Source of the DNA: an uncultured Coriobacteriaceae bacterium
GTDB lineage: Bacteria; Actinomycetota; Coriobacteriia; Coriobacteriales; Coriobacteriaceae
NCBI GenBank assembly: GCA_944322305.1
Contig: CALUOP010000004.1
Coordinates: forward strand, 1 to 64,000
Length of the DNA stretch: 64,000 nucleotides
Direction: 5' to 3'
In this document: piece after piece, positions 3,220-59,825 of the stretch
Layout: each line of letters opens with the position of its first letter
Position numbering within the stretch: the stretch's first letter is position 1
Translations under genes and position numbers: made by a program
The notes under the pieces: model-generated
Database searches by the model: none
What the model was told of the DNA's origin: nothing
The model's input: the letters and a program-made list of their open reading frames with translations, nothing else

Positions 3220-4299
3220 ATGCTTCGCGTAGGCATGCTCACAAGCGGCGGCGACTGCCAGTCGCTCAACGCGACGATGCGCGGCATCGTCAAAACGCTC
3301 GATGCCAACTGCAAGAAGGACGTTGAGTTCTACGGGTTCCAAGACGGCTACCGCGGTCTCATGTACGGCAACTACCGCGTCATGAAGGCGCCCGACTTCT
3401 CGGGCCTGCTCACGCGCGGCGGCACCATCTTGGGCACGAGCCGCACGCCTTTCAAGCAGATCGACGAGCCTATGCCCGACGGTCTGGAGAAAGTCCCGGC
3501 CATGAAGAAGATGTACAAGAAGCTCAAGCTCGACTGCCTGTGCGTGCTCGGCGGCAACGGTTCGCTCAAAACCGCCAATCGCCTGTCGGAGGAGGGCTTG
3601 AACGTTATCGGGCTGCCCAAGACCATCGACAACGACACCTGGGGCACCGACATGACCTTCGGCTTCCCCTCGGCCATCGACATCGCCACCAAGGCCGTTG
3701 ACGACATCCACACCACCGCCAGCTCGCACGGGCGCGTGTTCGTGATCGAGATCATGGGCCACAAGGTTGGCTGGATCCCGCTGTACGCCGGTGTTGCTGG
3801 CGGTGCCGACGTGATCCTCATCCCCGAGATCCCCTACGATTTGGACAACGTCCTCAAGGCTATCGACCAGCGCGTGAAGAACGGCGCCCGCTTCGCCATC
3901 GTGGTGGTGGCCGAGGGAGCCAAGTCCAAGGAGGAGGCGGCGCTCACCAAGAAGCAGTACAAGAAGCTCTTGGCCGCCCGCACCGAGCCCTCCATCGCCT
4001 ACGTGTTGGCCGACCAGATCGCCGAGCGCTCCGGCCGAGAAGTGCGCGTGGCCATCCCCGGGCACACGCAGCGCGGCGGCAGCCCGAGCGCCTACGACCG
4101 CGTGTTCGCCACGCAGTGCGGCGTTGAGGCCGCGCGCGGCATCCTCGAGGGGGCCTCGGGCTTCATGGTCGCCCAGGTTGGCGGCAAGATGTGCCGCGTG
4201 CCGCTGGCAGATATCGCCGGCAAGCTCAAGATGGTCGATCCCGAGTCCGACCTTGTCCGCGAGGCCCGCGCCCTCGGCATCAGCTTCGGCGACGAGTAA
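3220..4299 (+). CDS. pfkA: 6-phosphofructokinase
   Basis: The enzyme phosphorylates fructose 6-phosphate to fructose 1,6-bisphosphate in glycolysis. The 359-residue protein has the N-terminal phosphate loop LTSGGDCQSLNATMRG, the donor-site motif GGNGS (residues 111-115), PKTIDND (from residue 133) with the catalytic Asp, IEIMGHKVGW, and GHTQRGGSPSAYDR. The residue pattern is mixed. The Gly after Asn is the ATP-type determinant, but Lys134 in PKTIDND is typical of pyrophosphate-dependent and atypical ATP enzymes, and Asn replaces the usual Asp of GGDGS. The phosphate donor therefore cannot be read off safely. GAGGGAGG (3206-3213) sets the ATG. Confidence 0.95.
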   Translation: MLRVGMLTSGGDCQSLNATMRGIVKTLDANCKKDVEFYGFQDGYRGLMYGNYRVMKAPDFSGLLTRGGTILGTSRTPFKQIDEPMPDGLEKVPAMKKMYKKLKLDCLCVLGGNGSLKTANRLSEEGLNVIGLPKTIDNDTWGTDMTFGFPSAIDIATKAVDDIHTTASSHGRVFVIEIMGHKVGWIPLYAGVAGGADVILIPEIPYDLDNVLKAIDQRVKNGARFAIVVVAEGAKSKEEAALTKKQYKKLLAARTEPSIAYVLADQIAERSGREVRVAIPGHTQRGGSPSAYDRVFATQCGVEAARGILEGASGFMVAQVGGKMCRVPLADIAGKLKMVDPESDLVREARALGISFGDE

Positions 4300-4355
4300 C
4301 CCAGATTACTCCAGCTTCTCAAGCAGCCGAGAAGCACGTGCAGTAGGGTCCATGG

Positions 4356-4423
4356 GGCCCCGGGAGAACAAGAACCTTGATTTTGCTCGATATCAACATC
4401 AAGAACCTTGTTTTCCCGGGGCC
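4356..4423 (-). repeat. Two-stem hairpin family, copy 1
   Basis: Read on the minus strand, an outer stem opening GGCCCCGGGA closes with TCCCGGGGCC. Inside it is a symmetric GTT/GTT internal loop, then an inner stem (CTTGATGTTG with CAAAATCAAG, one mismatch) and the apical loop ATATCGAG. This is the most diverged of five copies and the only one with ATATCGAG rather than ATATCGGG. It sits 56 bases after pfkA and also lies downstream of uspA. Confidence 0.85.
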
Positions 4424-4488
4424 TTTCTGCGCCGTCGTCAGTGTGAGGGGCTTTGTGTGATGCGTTTGGGAGACGCTTCAGCTATGAA

Positions 4489-4558
4489 GGGGCCTGCGGG
4501 GATAAGGTTCCGGATTTTGATATCGGGCAAAATCCGGGTTCTTATCCCCGCAGGCCCC
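4489..4558 (+). repeat. Two-stem hairpin family, copy 2
   Basis: This is the most regular copy. An 18-bp outer stem (GGGGCCTGCGGGGATAAG with its exact complement) encloses the GTT/GTT internal loop, a 10-bp inner stem CCGGATTTTG / CAAAATCCGG and the loop ATATCGGG. It lies between pfkA and uspA, 44 bases from the uspA stop, in the orientation opposite to copy 1. Confidence 0.9.
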
Positions 4559-4601: not shown

Positions 4602-5078
4602 TTACTTCACCGTCATCACGGGAACGTCAACGGCGCGGAGGACACCGTAGCTTACGCTGCCGAGAAGACCGCGCACCGCGCCGAGGCCGCGCCGCCCCAT
4701 GATCACGAGGTCGCAGTCGTGGCGCTTCACGTAGGACGCGATGCCCTCGACCGGGGTGAGGTCGGGCATGACGTCTATGGCAGTCGCGCAGGCAAGCCCC
4801 TCAAGCGAGCCGGAAAGCTCCTCCTCAAGGTCATCCTTCATGTGCTTGACGTTCTCGCGGAAGGCGCGCTCGTAGAGGTCAGGCTCAACGAGCAGGTAGT
4901 CGGCCAAGGCGTCCGAGGCGGCCGGAATGGTGTGGAAGGGGTCGGAGGGCACCGTCATCACGCTCACCACGTGCAGCGTTGCCTCCTTGTCGGCGCCCAC
5001 GAGGTCTTTGGCTATCTCCAGGGCGCTGCGGGAGGGGTTGGATCCGTCGTACGGTACCAGCACGTTCTTGAAGCTCAT
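4602..5078 (-). CDS. uspA: Universal stress protein (UspA family)
   Basis: This is a single-domain universal stress protein of 158 residues, normally a dimeric nucleotide-binding cytoplasmic protein. The start MSFKNVLVPYDGS is the family's first beta strand and conserved Asp. The end carries the nucleotide-binding signature GRRGLGAVRGLLGS followed by VLRAVDVPVMTVK. The glycine spacing is one residue shorter than the textbook pattern. AGAGGAG precedes the ATG. On the minus strand, TTGTTT (5170-5175) and TATACA (5146-5151) are spaced 18 bp apart and could form the promoter. It is monocistronic. The specific stress signal is unknown. Confidence 0.93.
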   Translation of the reverse strand: MSFKNVLVPYDGSNPSRSALEIAKDLVGADKEATLHVVSVMTVPSDPFHTIPAASDALADYLLVEPDLYERAFRENVKHMKDDLEEELSGSLEGLACATAIDVMPDLTPVEGIASYVKRHDCDLVIMGRRGLGAVRGLLGSVSYGVLRAVDVPVMTVK

Positions 5079-7901: not shown

Positions 7902-8933
7902 ATGCAGAAGACCATTACGTTCGGCATACCGTGCTACAACTCGGCAAAGGACATGGACCGCGCCGTCTCGTCCATCTTGGACGGGTCGGACTTTGCCAGC
8001 GACGTGCAGATCGTCATCGTAGACGACGGCTCAAGCGACGAGACGCCCGCCAAGGCCGACGCCTGGGCGGCGCGCTATCCCGACATCGTGGAGGCGGTGC
8101 ACCAGGAAAACGGCGGCCACGGTATGGCGGTGCTCGCCGGCCTGCGCGCGGCCCAGGGCGTGTACTACAAGGTGCTCGACTCCGACGACTGGGTTGATCC
8201 CCATGCGCTGAAGGAGATGCTCTCCCTCTTGCGCGGCTTCATCAGCCGCGGCCTGCGCGTGGACCTGTTCATATCCAACTACGTGTACGAGCACGTGGCC
8301 GACGACACGCGCACCACCATCACCTACAAGAGCGTGCTGCCGCGCAAGAAGGTGTTCAGCTGGAGCGAGATCGGCCATTTCAAGCCGTGGCAGAACCTGC
8401 TCATGCACAGCCTGTGCTACCGCACCGAGGTGCTGCGCGCCGCCCAGGTGCCGCTGCCGGCGCACACCTTCTACGTGGACAACATCTATGCCTACCAGCC
8501 GCTTCCGCGCTGCACCACGATGTACTACGCCGACATCGACCTGTATCGCTACTTCATCGGCCGCGAGGACCAGAGTGTGAACGAGCAGGTCATGGTGGGG
8601 CGCATCGACCAGCAGCTGCGCGTGACCCGCATCATGATGGAGGCCTATCACCTGGATGACGACGTGTCCGAGCCGCGCCTGCGCTCGTACATGTACATGT
8701 ACTTCACGATGATGATGGCCATCTGCTCGGTGTTCTCGCGCCTGTCCGACGCGCCCGACGCCATGGACAACCTGAAGCGCCTGTGGGCCGACCTGCGCGT
8801 GTACGACAACCGCATGTACCAGCGCGCGCGTCACGGCCTGGTGGGCACGGCCACCAACCTGCCGGGTGCGATGGGCTCCAAGATCACCATCGGGCTCTAC
8901 CACTTGGCGAGCCGGATCTTCAAATTCAACTAG
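7902..8933 (+). CDS. Glycosyltransferase family 2 protein
   Basis: This is a GT-A fold, family 2 glycosyltransferase of 343 residues. It opens with KTITFGIPCYNSAKDMDRAV, has the nucleotide-sugar motif IVIVDDGSSDET, and the metal-binding DSDDWVD. The C-terminal half has aromatic-rich helices (SYMYMYFTMMMAI) but no clear membrane anchor. The frame is open further upstream into the terminator; the ATG at 7902 is chosen because GAGGAA stands just before it and the catalytic domain starts at once. Next to glf, a galactofuranosyl or other cell-surface polysaccharide transferase is the natural guess, but the acceptor cannot be told. Confidence 0.88.
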   Translation: MQKTITFGIPCYNSAKDMDRAVSSILDGSDFASDVQIVIVDDGSSDETPAKADAWAARYPDIVEAVHQENGGHGMAVLAGLRAAQGVYYKVLDSDDWVDPHALKEMLSLLRGFISRGLRVDLFISNYVYEHVADDTRTTITYKSVLPRKKVFSWSEIGHFKPWQNLLMHSLCYRTEVLRAAQVPLPAHTFYVDNIYAYQPLPRCTTMYYADIDLYRYFIGREDQSVNEQVMVGRIDQQLRVTRIMMEAYHLDDDVSEPRLRSYMYMYFTMMMAICSVFSRLSDAPDAMDNLKRLWADLRVYDNRMYQRARHGLVGTATNLPGAMGSKITIGLYHLASRIFKFN

Positions 8934-8959
8934 GCGAGAAGAGCGGGTTCTATCCCGGC

Positions 8960-9077
8960 GCCGCGTGCCCGGGCTTATCATCCCGTGCTCAAACAGCTTC
9001 GACGCGACGGAGGCCCCGGAAACGGGGCCTCCTGCGTCTGCAGAACTGCGCCGGGACGATAAGCCTGGGCACACGGC
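8960..9077. repeat. Large nested hairpin (26-bp arms, inner GAAA hairpin)
   Basis: The arms at 8960-8985 and 9052-9077 match at 23 of 26 positions; two of the three differences would be G-U pairs in a minus-strand transcript. Centred between them, 9009-9032 is a perfect 10-bp stem GGAGGCCCCG / CGGGGCCTCC with a GAAA loop. The inner hairpin is a plausible terminator for the GT2 gene, although no T-run follows. The outer arms make the whole unit look like a small palindromic element rather than a simple terminator. Confidence 0.75.
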
Positions 9078-9153
9078 TGCGTCATCCCGCCCGTTGCTCG
9101 GACGCATCGCTTCGCTCGCGTCGGAAGAGCGACGCTGCATCAAAGGTGGAAAA

Positions 9154-9221
9154 GGCCGGCGGGGAATAAGGTTCTGGATTTTGATATCGGGCAAAATCCA
9201 GGTTCTTATCCCCCGCCGGCC
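9154..9221 (+). repeat. Two-stem hairpin family, copy 3
   Basis: An outer stem GGCCGGCGGGG...ATAAG pairs with CTTAT...CCCCGCCGGCC (one A-C mismatch). It encloses the GTT/GTT internal loop, the inner stem CTGGATTTTG / CAAAATCCAG and the loop ATATCGGG. Relative to copy 2 the inner stem changes a C-G pair to T-A on both sides. It ends 23 bases from the stop of the P1 peptidase. Confidence 0.9.
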
Positions 9222-9243
9222 GTGCGCTCAAATAGGCGTTTTG

Positions 9244-10287
9244 CTAGTTGGCGGCGTCGGAGCGCAGGTCGCGCGCGGCGGGGATGCCGTGGAGGGATTC
9301 GGCTTGGGTGCAGCCGGCGGTGATGGCGGCTTCGAGGGCGCGCGTGGCAACCAAGCCCACCACGTCGAGGGGGAGGGCGTCGGCATCATCCAGGGTACCT
9401 GAGGCCAGGACGTAGATGGTGTCGCCGTCGTTGGTGGTGTGGGTGGGGCGGATGGTGTGCGCATAGGCGTCAGCGGCTATCTGGGCCACCTTGGTGGCTT
9501 GCGCCTTGGTGAGGCGCGCGTTGGTGAAGACGCATGAGATCGTGGTGTTGGTGCGGTCGAGCGGCATCGCGCCGGTGCCGCCGGGGGTGAGGAAGGCCTC
9601 CTCCATGCTTACGATCTCGCGTGCCTCGGGGGCGGGGCGCATGCCGGCGATCGGTTGGCCGCCGACGGGGTCCACGACGTTGCCGCAGGCGTTGACGGCG
9701 CTTATCGCCGCCACCTTGAGGGAGCCGAGCGCGAAGGCCCGCGCGCCCAAACCGCCTTTCATGGCGCACGCGGGGCCGTTGAGCTTGCCTACCGTGGCGC
9801 CTGTGCCGGCGCCGACGTTGCCCTCGGCGCAAGCGTCTGCGCTGGCGTGCTCGTCAGGGTTGGCGCAGCCCGTGAGCGCCGCTTGGGCGGCAAGCGCTCC
9901 GGCGCGCGCGTCGGGACGGGTGAAGGCGTCGCCGAAGGCGAGGTCGAAGATGCAGCTGGAGCACACGATGGGCACCTGGGTGGGGCCCACGGGAAGGCCG
10001 ATGCCCGCCTGCTCGAGCGCGCGCGCCACGCCGGAGGCCGCTTCGAGCCCGAAGGCCGACCCGCCGGACAGGCATACGGCATGCACCTGCTCCACGGTGT
10101 TCTCGGGGCGGAGGAGGTCGGTCTCGCGCGAGGCCGGCGCGCCGCCGCGCACGTCGACGGCGCCCGTGGCGCCGGAAGGCGCTGCGACGACGGTGCAGCC
10201 GGTGCCGGCCGCGAGGTCGGTCCAGTGGCCGACGCGAAAATCGTCGAGCGCGGTTACGGGGATGGGTTCAAGCGCGGATCTGCGCAT
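9244..10287 (-). CDS. P1 family peptidase (DmpA-like, S58)
   Basis: This is a member of the DmpA/S58 N-terminal-nucleophile aminopeptidase family, whose members self-cleave and act on N-terminal residues or beta-aminopeptides. The 347-residue protein shows GGAPASRETDLL, HAVCLSGGSAFGLEAA, GNVGAGTGATVGK, and the cleavage-region block RTNTTISCVFTNARLTKAQ, where a Thr/Ser would be freed as nucleophile. THTTNDGDTIYVLASG follows near the end. It is cytoplasmic, with no signal peptide. GAGGAG precedes the ATG. It follows maf on the same strand after a gap of about 50 bases. The natural substrate is unknown. Confidence 0.92.
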   Translation of the reverse strand: MRRSALEPIPVTALDDFRVGHWTDLAAGTGCTVVAAPSGATGAVDVRGGAPASRETDLLRPENTVEQVHAVCLSGGSAFGLEAASGVARALEQAGIGLPVGPTQVPIVCSSCIFDLAFGDAFTRPDARAGALAAQAALTGCANPDEHASADACAEGNVGAGTGATVGKLNGPACAMKGGLGARAFALGSLKVAAISAVNACGNVVDPVGGQPIAGMRPAPEAREIVSMEEAFLTPGGTGAMPLDRTNTTISCVFTNARLTKAQATKVAQIAADAYAHTIRPTHTTNDGDTIYVLASGTLDDADALPLDVVGLVATRALEAAITAGCTQAESLHGIPAARDLRSDAAN

Positions 10288-16115: not shown

Positions 16116-16190
16116 CACCTGCCATGGGGGACGGGTACCAATGGCAGAAGATGCGGGCCTGCCACTGGTACCCGTCCCCCATGGCAGGTG
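16116..16190. repeat. REPIN-like inverted pair
   Basis: Two 32-base arms, 16116-16147 and 16159-16190, are inverted copies differing at one base and are separated by 11 bases. Each arm is a full REP-like unit (GCCATGGGGGACGGGTACC and its complement). It lies between ppk and the GNAT gene, which are divergent. Upstream on the minus strand, TATACT at 16039-16044 may be the ppk -10 box. Confidence 0.88.
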
Positions 16191-16880: not shown

Positions 16881-16947
16881 GCCATTGGGGACGGGTACGG
16901 ATGGCAGAGTGCGGAGCACCTGCCATCCGTACCCGTCCCCAATGGCA
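16881..16947. repeat. REPIN-like inverted pair
   Basis: GCCATTGGGGACGGGTAC-type unit at 16881-16906 and its complement at 16921-16947 match over 26 bases, with a 14-base spacer that itself contains a small GTGC/GCAC hairpin. It lies 36 bases after the GNAT stop and could act as its terminator. The unit is identical in its core to the single copy in thyA-folA. Confidence 0.88.
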
Positions 16948-26141: not shown

Positions 26142-26213
26142 ATCCGCCCGCCTTCCCTTCCCGTTGTCTTGTTTTTTGAGTGGATGATTCGCCCTGTGAC
26201 AGGGAGACCTCAA

Positions 26214-26279
26214 GGCCGCGGGTGACAAGGTTCCGAAATCCGATATCGGGCGGATTTCGGGTTCTTGTCGCCCGCGGCC
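26214..26279 (+). repeat. Two-stem hairpin family, copy 4
   Basis: The outer stem pairs GGCCGCGGG...GACAAG with CTTGTC...CCCGCGGCC and encloses the GTT/GTT internal loop. The inner stem is CCGAAATCCG / CGGATTTCGG, so five of its base pairs differ from copy 2 with pairing kept; the loop is ATATCGGG. It lies in the 154-base aroF-tyrA gap, oriented against the direction of transcription, 16 bases from the aroF stop. A TTTTTT run at 26172-26177 lies beyond it towards tyrA. Confidence 0.92.
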
Positions 26280-26295
26280 ACCGGGAGATCGCCCG

Positions 26296-27303
26296 TTACG
26301 CGATAGCCGCCCGGATGGCCTCGATGCGGCGCATCGTGTCGGCGAACTGCGCCGGGGTGAGCGCCTGCGCGCCGTCGGACCAGGCGTGGCTCGGGTCGTC
26401 GTGCACCTCGATCTCTAGGCCGTCGGCGCCGGCAGCCGTGGCGGCGAGCGCCATCTGCGGCACGTAGCGCGTGTAGCCCACGGCGTGGCTGGGGTCGGCC
26501 ACCACCGGCAGGTGCGAGAGGTAGTGCAGCACCGGGATGGCGTTGAGGTCGAAGGTGTTGCGGGTGCGCGTCTCGAAGGTCCGGATGCCGCGCTCGCACA
26601 GGATCACGTTGTCGTTGCCCTCGCTCATGATGTACTCGGCGGCCATGAGGAGCTCGTCGATGGTCTCGGACATGCCGCGCTTGAGAAGCACCGGGGTCTG
26701 GGTCTTGCCCACCTCTTTGAGCAGGGTGAAGTTCTGCGCGTTGCGCGCGCCGATCTGCATGACGTTGATGCCCTTGTCAACGAAGAGGGCCACGTCGCGC
26801 GGGTCCATGATCTCGGTCACCACGGGCATCCCGAGCTCGTCGCGCGCCTCGCAGAGCAGGTCCAAGCCGCGCTCGCCCATGCCCTGGTTGGCGTACGGGG
26901 AGGTGCGGGGCTTGAAGGCGCCGCCGCGCAGCATCGTGGCGCCGGCCTCCTTCACCGCGCGGGCGATGCGGATGAGGTTGTCGCCCTCCACCGAGCAGGG
27001 GCCGGCGATGACGGGGAAGTACCCGCCGCCGATCTTCACGCCTAAGCCGCAGTCGACCACGGTGTCTTGCGGGTGGAACTTGCGGTTGGCCTTCTTGAAC
27101 GGCTCGGAGACGCGCTGCACGCGCTCTACGATGTCCATGCTCTCGAGCAGAAACGGGTCGATGCGGGTGGTGTCGCCCACCAGGCCCACGATGGTCTCGT
27201 TGGCGCCGTGGCTCACGTGGGTCTCGAGCCCCTTCTTGTGGATCCACCCCAGCAGGTGGTCTACGGCGTCTTGCGGCGCGTCTTTGCGCAGGATTGCGAT
27301 CAT
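26296..27303 (-). CDS. aroF: 3-deoxy-7-phosphoheptulonate (DAHP) synthase
   Basis: This is the first shikimate step, condensing PEP with erythrose 4-phosphate. The 335-residue protein is the type I-beta form with an N-terminal ferredoxin-like regulatory domain (about 1-75: IAILRKDAPQDAVDHLL) and a KDO8P-synthase-like barrel: VIAGPCSVEGDN, LRGGAFKPRTSPYANQG, PVLLKRGMSETIDELLMAAEY and VVADPSHAVGYTRYV. The N-terminal domain normally senses an aromatic product. The ATG at 27303 with GGGGG before it is preferred to the GTG four codons upstream. It is the first gene of the aro operon; TACACT at 27346-27351 on the minus strand may be its -10 box. Confidence 0.95.
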   Translation of the reverse strand: MIAILRKDAPQDAVDHLLGWIHKKGLETHVSHGANETIVGLVGDTTRIDPFLLESMDIVERVQRVSEPFKKANRKFHPQDTVVDCGLGVKIGGGYFPVIAGPCSVEGDNLIRIARAVKEAGATMLRGGAFKPRTSPYANQGMGERGLDLLCEARDELGMPVVTEIMDPRDVALFVDKGINVMQIGARNAQNFTLLKEVGKTQTPVLLKRGMSETIDELLMAAEYIMSEGNDNVILCERGIRTFETRTRNTFDLNAIPVLHYLSHLPVVADPSHAVGYTRYVPQMALAATAAGADGLEIEVHDDPSHAWSDGAQALTPAQFADTMRRIEAIRAAIA

Positions 27304-57648: not shown

Positions 57649-59742
57649 ATGGCGGATACCCGTGACTTCCTGTTTGAGATCGGCACCGAGGAGATGCCCT
57701 CGGCGCCGCTGATGAACGCGGCCAAGCAGCTTGGCGGCCTGGTGGCCCGCGGGCTTGACGAGGCCGGCCTCGCCCACGGGGCGGTGCGCGTGATCTCCTC
57801 GCCCCGCCGCCTCGCCGCCCTGGTTGCCGACGTGGCCGCGGCCACCGAGGAGATCCATGAGGTGAAGCGCGGCCCGGCGGCGCAGATCGCCTTCGACGCC
57901 GACGGCAACCCCACCAAGGCCGCCGAGGGCTTTGCGCGCAAATGCGGTGTGGCTGCCTCCGAGCTGGTGCGTCGCCAGGACGCCGACGGCCGCGAGTACG
58001 TCTTCGCCGAGCGGTACATCCCCTCCGCGCCCGCCGAGCCCATCCTCTCGGCCCTGTGCGAGAAGACCATCGCCGGCCTTGAGTGGCCCAACTACCGCAG
58101 CCAGCGCTGGGGCTCCACGCACGAGACCTTCGTGCGCCCGATCCGGTGGCTGTGCGTGCTGTTCGGCGGCGACGTCGTGCCGGTGCGCTACGCCGACGTG
58201 GTTTCCGGCAACACCACCCGCGGCCATCGCGTGCTGGGCCCCGGCGAGCACGTGGTTGCCGAGCCGGCCGCATACGAGCAGGTGCTTGAGGAGGCGGGCG
58301 TGCTCTCCGAGGAGCGCCGGCGCGCGGTTATCGCCGAGGGCATCGCGCGCGTCGAAGCCGAGCGCCCGGGCTGCCGTGTCGACACGCCCAAGAAGGTGCT
58401 CGACGAGGTGGTGAACCTCTGCGAGTGGCCGAGCGTGCTCGTGGGCACCTTCGACGAGGAGTTCCTCGCCGTCCCGCACGAGATCATCTGCGAGTCCATG
58501 CTCTCCAACCAGCGTTACTTTCCCATCTACGACGCGGACGGCAACCTCACCCGCGAGTTCGTGGTGGTCTCCAACGGCCGTCCGGAGTGCTCGGCGCGCA
58601 TCGTTGACGGCAACGAGCGCGTGGTGCGCGCCCGCCTCTACGACGCCAAGTTCTTCTACGACGAGGATCTCAAGGTGCCGCTCGAGGAGTTCCGCAGCCG
58701 TCTTGCCAAGGTTGCCTTCCAGGAGAAGCTCGGCAGCGTGCTCGAGAAGTCCGAGCGCATCGAGAAGCTCAGCCGCGCCATCGCCGAGGCCGCCGGTGTC
58801 GACGCCGCGGTCGCCGCAGACGCCGTGCGCGCCGCTCACTTTGCCAAGGCCGACCTGGTTTCCTCCGCGGTGGTTGAGTTCACCAGCCAGCAGGGCGTGA
58901 TGGGCGGGTACTACGCGGCTGCGGCGGGTGAGAACCCCGAGGTCGCCGCCGCTATCCGCGACCACTACCGCCCGCGCTTCGCCGGCGACGAGCTGCCGAG
59001 CGGGCAGGCCGGCTGCATCGTGGCGGTGGCCGACAAGCTCGACACCATTGCCGGCATGTTTGCCATCGGCGAGCCGCCGACCGGCTCCAAGGACCCCTTT
59101 GCGTTGCGCCGCAGCGCCATCGGCGTGCTGAACATCCTGCGCCAGCGCCTGGGTTGCGGCTACGAGGAACTCGTGGCGCCTGCGCTTGCGGCGTACGCCG
59201 AGCAGGGCATCGCCTTTGACGCCGGGGCCGTGTGCGACGCGGTGTGCATCTTCGTGAAGGGCCGCATGGAGCAGATGGCCCGCGACGAGAAGATCCCGGT
59301 CGACGTGGTCGCAGCGGTCTCCGCCGGCAGCGTGTCGGCGCCCGCCGACTACTTCGCGCTCGCCCACGCCCTGGACGACGCGCGCAAGGGCGACCCGGAG
59401 ACCTTCGAGAACCTCGCTACCGCCTACGCCCGCGCGAGCCACCTCGCCGACGCGTCGCTTGGCTGCGAGGTGGACGAGGCCCTTATGGGCGAGGCCGAGC
59501 GCGACCTGCTCATGGCGACGGACGCCGCGCGCGACGTCGTTGCGCTGGCGCTCGCCAAGAAGGACTTCGCTGCGGTGATCGCCTCGCTCGCCGCCCTGCG
59601 CGAGCCCGTTGACCGCTTCTTCGACGACGTGATGGTCATGGACGAGGACCAGGCCTTGCGCGAGAACCGCCTGCGCCTGCTCAACCGCTTCGAGAGCGTC
59701 TTCACAGGGATCGCCAACATGGGGGCGCTCGCAAAGAAATAG
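57649..59742 (+). CDS. glyS: Glycyl-tRNA synthetase beta subunit
   Basis: The beta chain binds tRNA-Gly and has an HD-like domain and a C-terminal anticodon-binding domain. The 697-residue protein starts DFLFEIGTEEMPSAPL, then ISSPRRLAALVADV, FVRPIRWLCVLFG, the central EFLAVPHEIICESMLSNQRYFP, YDAKFFYDEDLKVPLEEF, QGVMGGYYAAAAGE, and LREPVDRFFDDVMVMDED at the end. AGGGGGAGG before the ATG lies within the glyQ end. Copy 5 of the structured repeat follows 11 bases after the stop. Confidence 0.97.
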   Translation: MADTRDFLFEIGTEEMPSAPLMNAAKQLGGLVARGLDEAGLAHGAVRVISSPRRLAALVADVAAATEEIHEVKRGPAAQIAFDADGNPTKAAEGFARKCGVAASELVRRQDADGREYVFAERYIPSAPAEPILSALCEKTIAGLEWPNYRSQRWGSTHETFVRPIRWLCVLFGGDVVPVRYADVVSGNTTRGHRVLGPGEHVVAEPAAYEQVLEEAGVLSEERRRAVIAEGIARVEAERPGCRVDTPKKVLDEVVNLCEWPSVLVGTFDEEFLAVPHEIICESMLSNQRYFPIYDADGNLTREFVVVSNGRPECSARIVDGNERVVRARLYDAKFFYDEDLKVPLEEFRSRLAKVAFQEKLGSVLEKSERIEKLSRAIAEAAGVDAAVAADAVRAAHFAKADLVSSAVVEFTSQQGVMGGYYAAAAGENPEVAAAIRDHYRPRFAGDELPSGQAGCIVAVADKLDTIAGMFAIGEPPTGSKDPFALRRSAIGVLNILRQRLGCGYEELVAPALAAYAEQGIAFDAGAVCDAVCIFVKGRMEQMARDEKIPVDVVAAVSAGSVSAPADYFALAHALDDARKGDPETFENLATAYARASHLADASLGCEVDEALMGEAERDLLMATDAARDVVALALAKKDFAAVIASLAALREPVDRFFDDVMVMDEDQALRENRLRLLNRFESVFTGIANMGALAKK

Positions 59743-59753
59743 GCTCCCTTTTC

Positions 59754-59825
59754 GGCGGGGCGGGGCGATGTGAACCTGGATTTTGCCCGATATCAAAATC
59801 CAGAACCACGTCGCCCCGCCCCGCC
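59754..59825 (-). repeat. Two-stem hairpin family, copy 5
   Basis: On the minus strand the outer stem pairs GGCGGGGCGGGGCGA with TCGCCCCGCCCCGCC and continues for four more pairs, one mismatched. It encloses the GTT/GTT loop, the inner stem CTGGATTTTG / CAAAATCCAG and the loop ATATCGGG. The inner part is identical to copy 3 while the outer stem is entirely different. It lies between glyS and rplS, antisense to both. Confidence 0.92.

Follow-up and report, generated by a model that had tools for sequence, protein, structure and literature searches.

The REP sequences of the REP/RAYT systems (REPtrons, BIMEs) are short extragenic imperfect palindromes of which there are tens of copies, located at gene ends and in inverted pairs (PMC2817692; PMC8266576), and the hairpin repeats analyzed here, hereinafter family A, share all these features. 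The REPs of E. coli, imperfect palindromes of 29-37 nt with a mid-stem bulge, undergo processing in the form of folded ssDNA; TnpA-REP depends on these mid-stem mismatches, and correction of the bulge abolishes activity (PMC8266576). Family A also has a conserved irregular zone in the middle of the stem, and a RAYT-like gene is found in both genomes that carry it, but at ~70 nt its copies are twice as long as the E. coli REPs, its stems vary with compensation whereas the loops are fixed, there is no GTAG foot, and the element does not flank the transposase gene. The CGTC-tagged REPs and RAYT terminal inverted repeats are palindromic dispersed repeats as well, with stems of 8-9 bp and a CGTC foot (PMC3733652). 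Neither of these two features is found in family A, although the genome under study also holds GGGGACG palindromes, at 16119-16187 and 16881-16946 of the window.

The stems of integron attC sites are variable, and their boxes consist of GTT and AAC sequences that pair with each other. These sites are folded single-stranded hairpins that are recognized via unpaired bases (PMC3053210). Unlike in attC, both sides of the family A internal loop read AAC, and the copies are scattered among chromosomal genes rather than arranged in cassettes. Intrinsic terminators resemble family A in being sense-oriented hairpins located directly past a stop codon and sometimes followed by T's, but the loops of family A are common across loci, the hairpins are 70 nt long, the T tract is mostly weak, and there is no G.U bias. 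Finally, template switching makes compensatory and multi-base changes, and creates and mends hairpin stems in one event (PMC8794818). Family A shows the same compensatory and multi-base restoration of perfect stems; however, hairpins made by template switching have been described in RNA genes, whereas family A consists of dispersed repeats with conserved loops.

All five hairpins reported in the initial annotation of the window (the whole 64-kb stretch of DNA that was analyzed) are present and fold as first described; the covariance-model coordinates (Table 1) agree with the earlier ones within 2 nt, and the inner stems quoted for copies 2 and 4, CCGGATTTTG and CCGAAATCCG, are correct. The pattern GTT-N10-ATATCGRG-N10-GTT has five exact matches in the window compared to 0.11 expected from shuffled sequences, and the fold stability of the five hairpins corresponds to z values between -5.9 and -10.7. 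Copies 1 and 2 are the left and right halves of one inverted pair, and copy 2 has the best model score (93.7 bits). The five upstream genes are unrelated and their products have no common theme, and a shared regulon was rejected on these grounds.

Table 1. Coordinates of the family A hairpins and other features discussed in the text (plain numbers refer to the window; L numbers denote loci; G000, host genome; G003, sister species)
Feature	Position	Strand	Context or structure
Family A, copy 1	4355-4424	(-), transcribed sense +	55 nt past stop of phosphofructokinase gene 3220-4299(+)
Family A, copy 2	4489-4558	(+), sense -	43 nt past stop of universal stress protein gene 4602-5078(-)
Copy 2 inner module	4507-4540	(+)	GTT / 10-bp inner stem / ATATCGGG loop / GTT
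Copy 2 inner module, sense strand			AAC / stem / CCCGATAT / stem / AAC
Family A, copy 3	9153-9222	(+), sense -	21 nt past stop of S58 peptidase gene 9244-10287(-)
Family A, copy 4	26212-26281	(+), sense -	14 nt past stop of DAHP synthase gene 26296-27303(-)
Family A, copy 5	59755-59824	(-), sense +	12 nt past stop of glycyl-tRNA synthetase beta gene 57649-59742(+)
Motif like GGCGAGAAGAGCGG	8933-8950
Family B hairpin	8959-9070		locus-specific outer stems; conserved GCTCAA..CA, GCGACG and GAAA loop
Palindromes CCATTGGGGACGGGTAC...	16119-16187; 16881-16946
RAYT-like Y1 transposase gene	L075:1075-1869		adjoins gpmI
Family A at ends of separated genes	L005:3031-3220, L065:3042-3111 vs L071:16373-16558		adjacent in G003, on two contigs in G000
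Family A between larger inverted repeats	L010:3019-3204; L008:7739-7882		repeats of 20 nt (95%) and 22 nt (91%)
Family A, multiple copies	L062:3049-3356		three copies past a single gene in G000, one in G003
Third hairpin kind	L083, G003 C1:317416-317552		GCTCCGCATGCA...TGCATGCGGAGC

A covariance model of family A was built from 25 copies and used to search genomes, along with a search of Rfam. The host genome (2.35 Mb) contains 25 exact copies by pattern and ~46 by the covariance model, and one sister species contains 9. The model found no copy in the two other sampled species of the genus or in 63 further Coriobacteriaceae genomes (67 family genomes in total). When 84,980 species were scanned for the core pattern, 14 stretches were obtained, of which only two, both in the sister species, belong to family A; the other 12 come from unrelated taxa and were treated as coincidental. 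Searches of phage, plasmid and viral collections gave no match to family A. At the gathering thresholds, the only Rfam match in the whole window is one tRNA, and below them nearly all hits are generic microRNA hairpins; the earlier view that this is not a named element thus stands, whereas Collinsella-1, proposed as a candidate for comparison, was not returned for the two family A copies scanned at E values up to 10. Family A is best read as a young family, restricted to one lineage, of dispersed REP-like hairpins of ~70 nt. As to its nature, we consider that there is about an even chance that it is a REP-like repeat whose recognition depends on its shape and its unpaired bases and which is tolerated as a hairpin at gene ends.

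On the transcribed strand, family A consists of an outer stem (~18 bp), a 3x3 internal loop with AAC on each side, an inner stem of 10 bp, the apical loop CCCGATAT and the 3' arms. The inner stem has a C-G closing pair and a near-invariant T-A pair at columns 28/43 (T in 48 and A in 46 of 48 copies), and sense columns 19, 28, 34, 35, 38 and 40 are invariant in all 48 full-length copies. The internal loop reads AAC/AAC in 37 of 47 copies. The outer stem varies in sequence but spans 15-22 bp in nearly all copies; this fairly uniform length implies that the outer stem is under some selection, which speaks against the reading as a REP-like repeat. The inner end of the outer stem shows a bias towards GATAAG/CTTATC, so the outer stems, initially stated to share almost no sequence, are not entirely unrelated. 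The flanks beyond the outer stem have almost no information content.

The copies have a fixed orientation relative to the upstream genes. Of 55 copies, 31 are located 7-64 nt past a stop codon with the sense strand transcribed from the upstream gene, compared to two in the opposite orientation at such a distance, in counts based on gene calls from a simple codon-usage script that miscalled some neighbors. The strand folded in the initial annotation is therefore the reverse of the transcribed one. Convergent gene pairs often carry two copies in opposite orientations. The first 8 nt 3' of the hairpin (sense) contain 34% T compared to 18% on the other side; the T tract is not strong in most copies, with at least four T's within 6 nt in 4 of 26. 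Replacement of other terminators by family A was considered as well and rejected: another T-tract terminator is missing at 20 of the 26 copy-bearing gene ends and at 51 of the 69 copy-free ends. The best reading of these data is that family A hairpins serve, or are tolerated, as the transcript 3'-end hairpin; a role in the RNA, in termination or in protection of the mRNA end, is plausible but would be secondary.

The fixed orientation and the 3' T enrichment fit a primary RNA role too. Under this alternative, which we regard as possible but rather doubtful, family A would be a structured RNA at the 3' ends of mRNAs, acting as a terminator or protection hairpin; a protein or small RNA would bind AAC/AAC and the CCCGAUAU loop, and the stems would be under selection for the RNA fold. 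The strong conservation of the unpaired bases and the T-rich 3' flanks of some copies agree with this explanation, and so, at face value, does the covariation. As noticed at the outset, the loops are nearly invariant family-wide and the stems differ: two-sided changes are found at 24 of the 28 stem pairs, and 93.9% of the alignment cells pair. The alignment contains 186 cells with two-sided changes and ~10 with one-sided changes; fewer than two two-sided changes would be expected at the observed per-side rate (hand calculation), and no shuffle reached the observed covariation score.

However, the imperfections of the stems do not look like those of RNA. On the transcribed strand, family A stems contain 23 G.U and 20 A.C flaws, compared to 81 and 20, respectively (4:1), in 198 T-tract terminators, mostly from the host genome and the sister species (Fisher p=0.002, with only 43 family A mismatches). 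Given that G.U does not exceed A.C as it does in terminators, the covariation does not demonstrate selection on the RNA fold. Furthermore, all three pairs of the internal loop are formed in 4 of 47 copies, none in 41, one in 2 and two in no copy. Such conversion of the whole 3x3 loop, without any copy with two pairs, is a multi-base, one-step pattern of the kind produced by template-switch correction of palindromes, and points to DNA template switching at quasipalindromes; the lack of a G.U preference fits this mechanism as well. Conversely, something still selects for the internal loop, given that it is left unpaired in those 41 copies. The initial annotation held that covariation implies selection on the folded form; the fold is indeed kept while the stems change, but that inference is too strong in view of the G.U to A.C ratio and the loop conversions, and the DNA cruciform or hairpin that it allowed for is, in our reckoning, a correct possibility. 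The structured RNA explanation is further weakened by the restriction of family A to two species, the unrelated genes upstream of the window copies and the paucity of strong T tracts.

The REP-like repeat recognized by shape accommodates these observations under the following scenario. Complementarity of the stems would be maintained in the DNA, mainly via template-switch correction of quasipalindromes; the element might be spread by a putative enzyme that reads folded single-stranded DNA through the bulge and the loop, by analogy with TnpA-REP; and copies that lie past stop codons in one orientation would be used or tolerated as the 3' end.

Comparison of the host genome with the sister species shows both divergence and turnover of family A. 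Copies 1 and 2 have orthologs in the sister species, each with two compensatory pair changes, and copy 4 has a diverged ortholog; copies 3 and 5 are missing at the syntenic places, and at that of copy 3 a different hairpin is found instead. Many other syntenic places in the sister species lack a family A copy, and one copy of the sister species is missing from the host genome. Among 135 pairs in orthologous copies, there are 8 changes from one Watson-Crick pair to another and 10 one-sided changes. Orthologous copies retain 10-14 of 14 outer-stem bases. For the 16 copies missing in the sister species, the best outer-arm match to other copies averages 10.19/14 compared to 10.32 expected from column shuffles. 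Across copies, the similarity of the outer stems is nearly independent of that of the inner stems (r=0.07), and pairs with similar outer stems are in weak excess (49 vs 28). At one locus (L004), the sister species has an intact terminator, and the host genome has only its 3' half, beside two copies, which suggests that these copies were gained in the host genome; in the outgroup these two genes are not neighbors, so that it does not polarize the change further. Plain terminators occupy the first window locus in the outgroups. None of the syntenic places compared contains an alignable empty site with precise boundaries, because the intergenic DNA has diverged too far, and no spacer shared within inverted pairs was seen by eye. 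Two explanations offer themselves for the 16 missing copies: a new outer stem is made whenever a copy arises, or these copies are much older and have been lost repeatedly. The restricted distribution favors the former, without proving it. We tentatively entertain the possibility, without considering it probable, that the inherited information consists of the fold and the unpaired bases, and that new copies gain new, perfectly paired outer stems of approximately the same length at the DNA level, which would produce textbook RNA covariation without RNA selection.

A more specific version of mobility, in which family A is a REP family mobilized by the RAYT-type Y1 transposase encoded next to gpmI, appears unlikely. 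Within the genus, this gene is present in exactly the two hairpin-carrying genomes and absent from the two others, an association that rests on one sister pair; the protein matches the model of REP-associated transposases with an E value of 7.6e-20, although below the model cut-off. The likeness to E. coli REPs, with their mid-stem bulge required for activity (PMC8266576), and the resemblance of the inverted pairs to BIMEs also speak for this possibility. However, a 14-kb stretch around the gene contains no family A copy in either carrier genome, and in the host genome the gene is flanked by a different, GGGGACGTG-type inverted repeat. GTAG is found within 15 nt of 1 of 46 copies on each side, and the flanks contain neither CGTC nor any other conserved foot. 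Moreover, Y1 genes are present in 55 of the 67 family genomes, nearly all of which lack the hairpin. The lack of family A near the RAYT-like gene and the presence of another repeat around it weaken the broader REP-like reading too. Mobility based on reverse transcription (group II intron, retron or DGR) was rejected, with no RVT_1 domain in any of the four genus genomes. Insertion of a small module, the inner stem with the loops, into the loops of existing terminators, with the outer stem belonging to the host, is highly improbable: the outer stems are locus-specific and independent of the inner stem, and two copies sit between larger inverted repeats, but no terminator with a matching stem was seen by eye at element-free syntenic sites, and the outer stem is too uniform in length and biased at its inner end.

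Several other repeats are present in these genomes. The GGGGACGTG repeat that flanks the RAYT-like gene is related to the CCATTGGGGACGGGTAC palindromes of the window, which resemble CGTC-type REPs and have copies in the sister species and no matches in the two other species of the genus. Family B is a second modular hairpin with loops common to the copies and covarying stems, so that at least one further family of the same build exists in the genus; in each of the 23 exact matches to its pattern, the 6-bp inner stem is perfectly paired, and several stem sequences occur. Family B is found in all four genus genomes, with one copy in another genus, and has no Rfam match. A third kind of hairpin occupies a locus of the sister species where the host genome carries families A and B. 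A motif that resembles GGCGAGAAGAGCGG, or the complementary CTTCTCGC, is located directly past stop codons at many gene ends in all four genomes.

Some loci show rearrangements around family A. In one case, genes that are adjacent in the sister species lie on two contigs in the host genome, with family A at both ends, and rearrangement through the repeats is possible. At one of the two loci with larger inverted repeats (L010), a repeat arm overlaps the stop codon of the upstream gene, which suggests that template switching copied the arm downstream. Two of the three copies at the L062 gene end are followed by a similar spacer, as in a tandem duplication.

The standard proof that an RNA fold is functional is covariation, and yet family A, with 24 of its 28 pairs covarying, has no RNA signature in the strand test that compares G.U with A.C. 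This test could serve as a simple control for other predictions of RNA motifs. Family A itself looks like a variant of REP that is recognized by its shape, with stems that are free to change.
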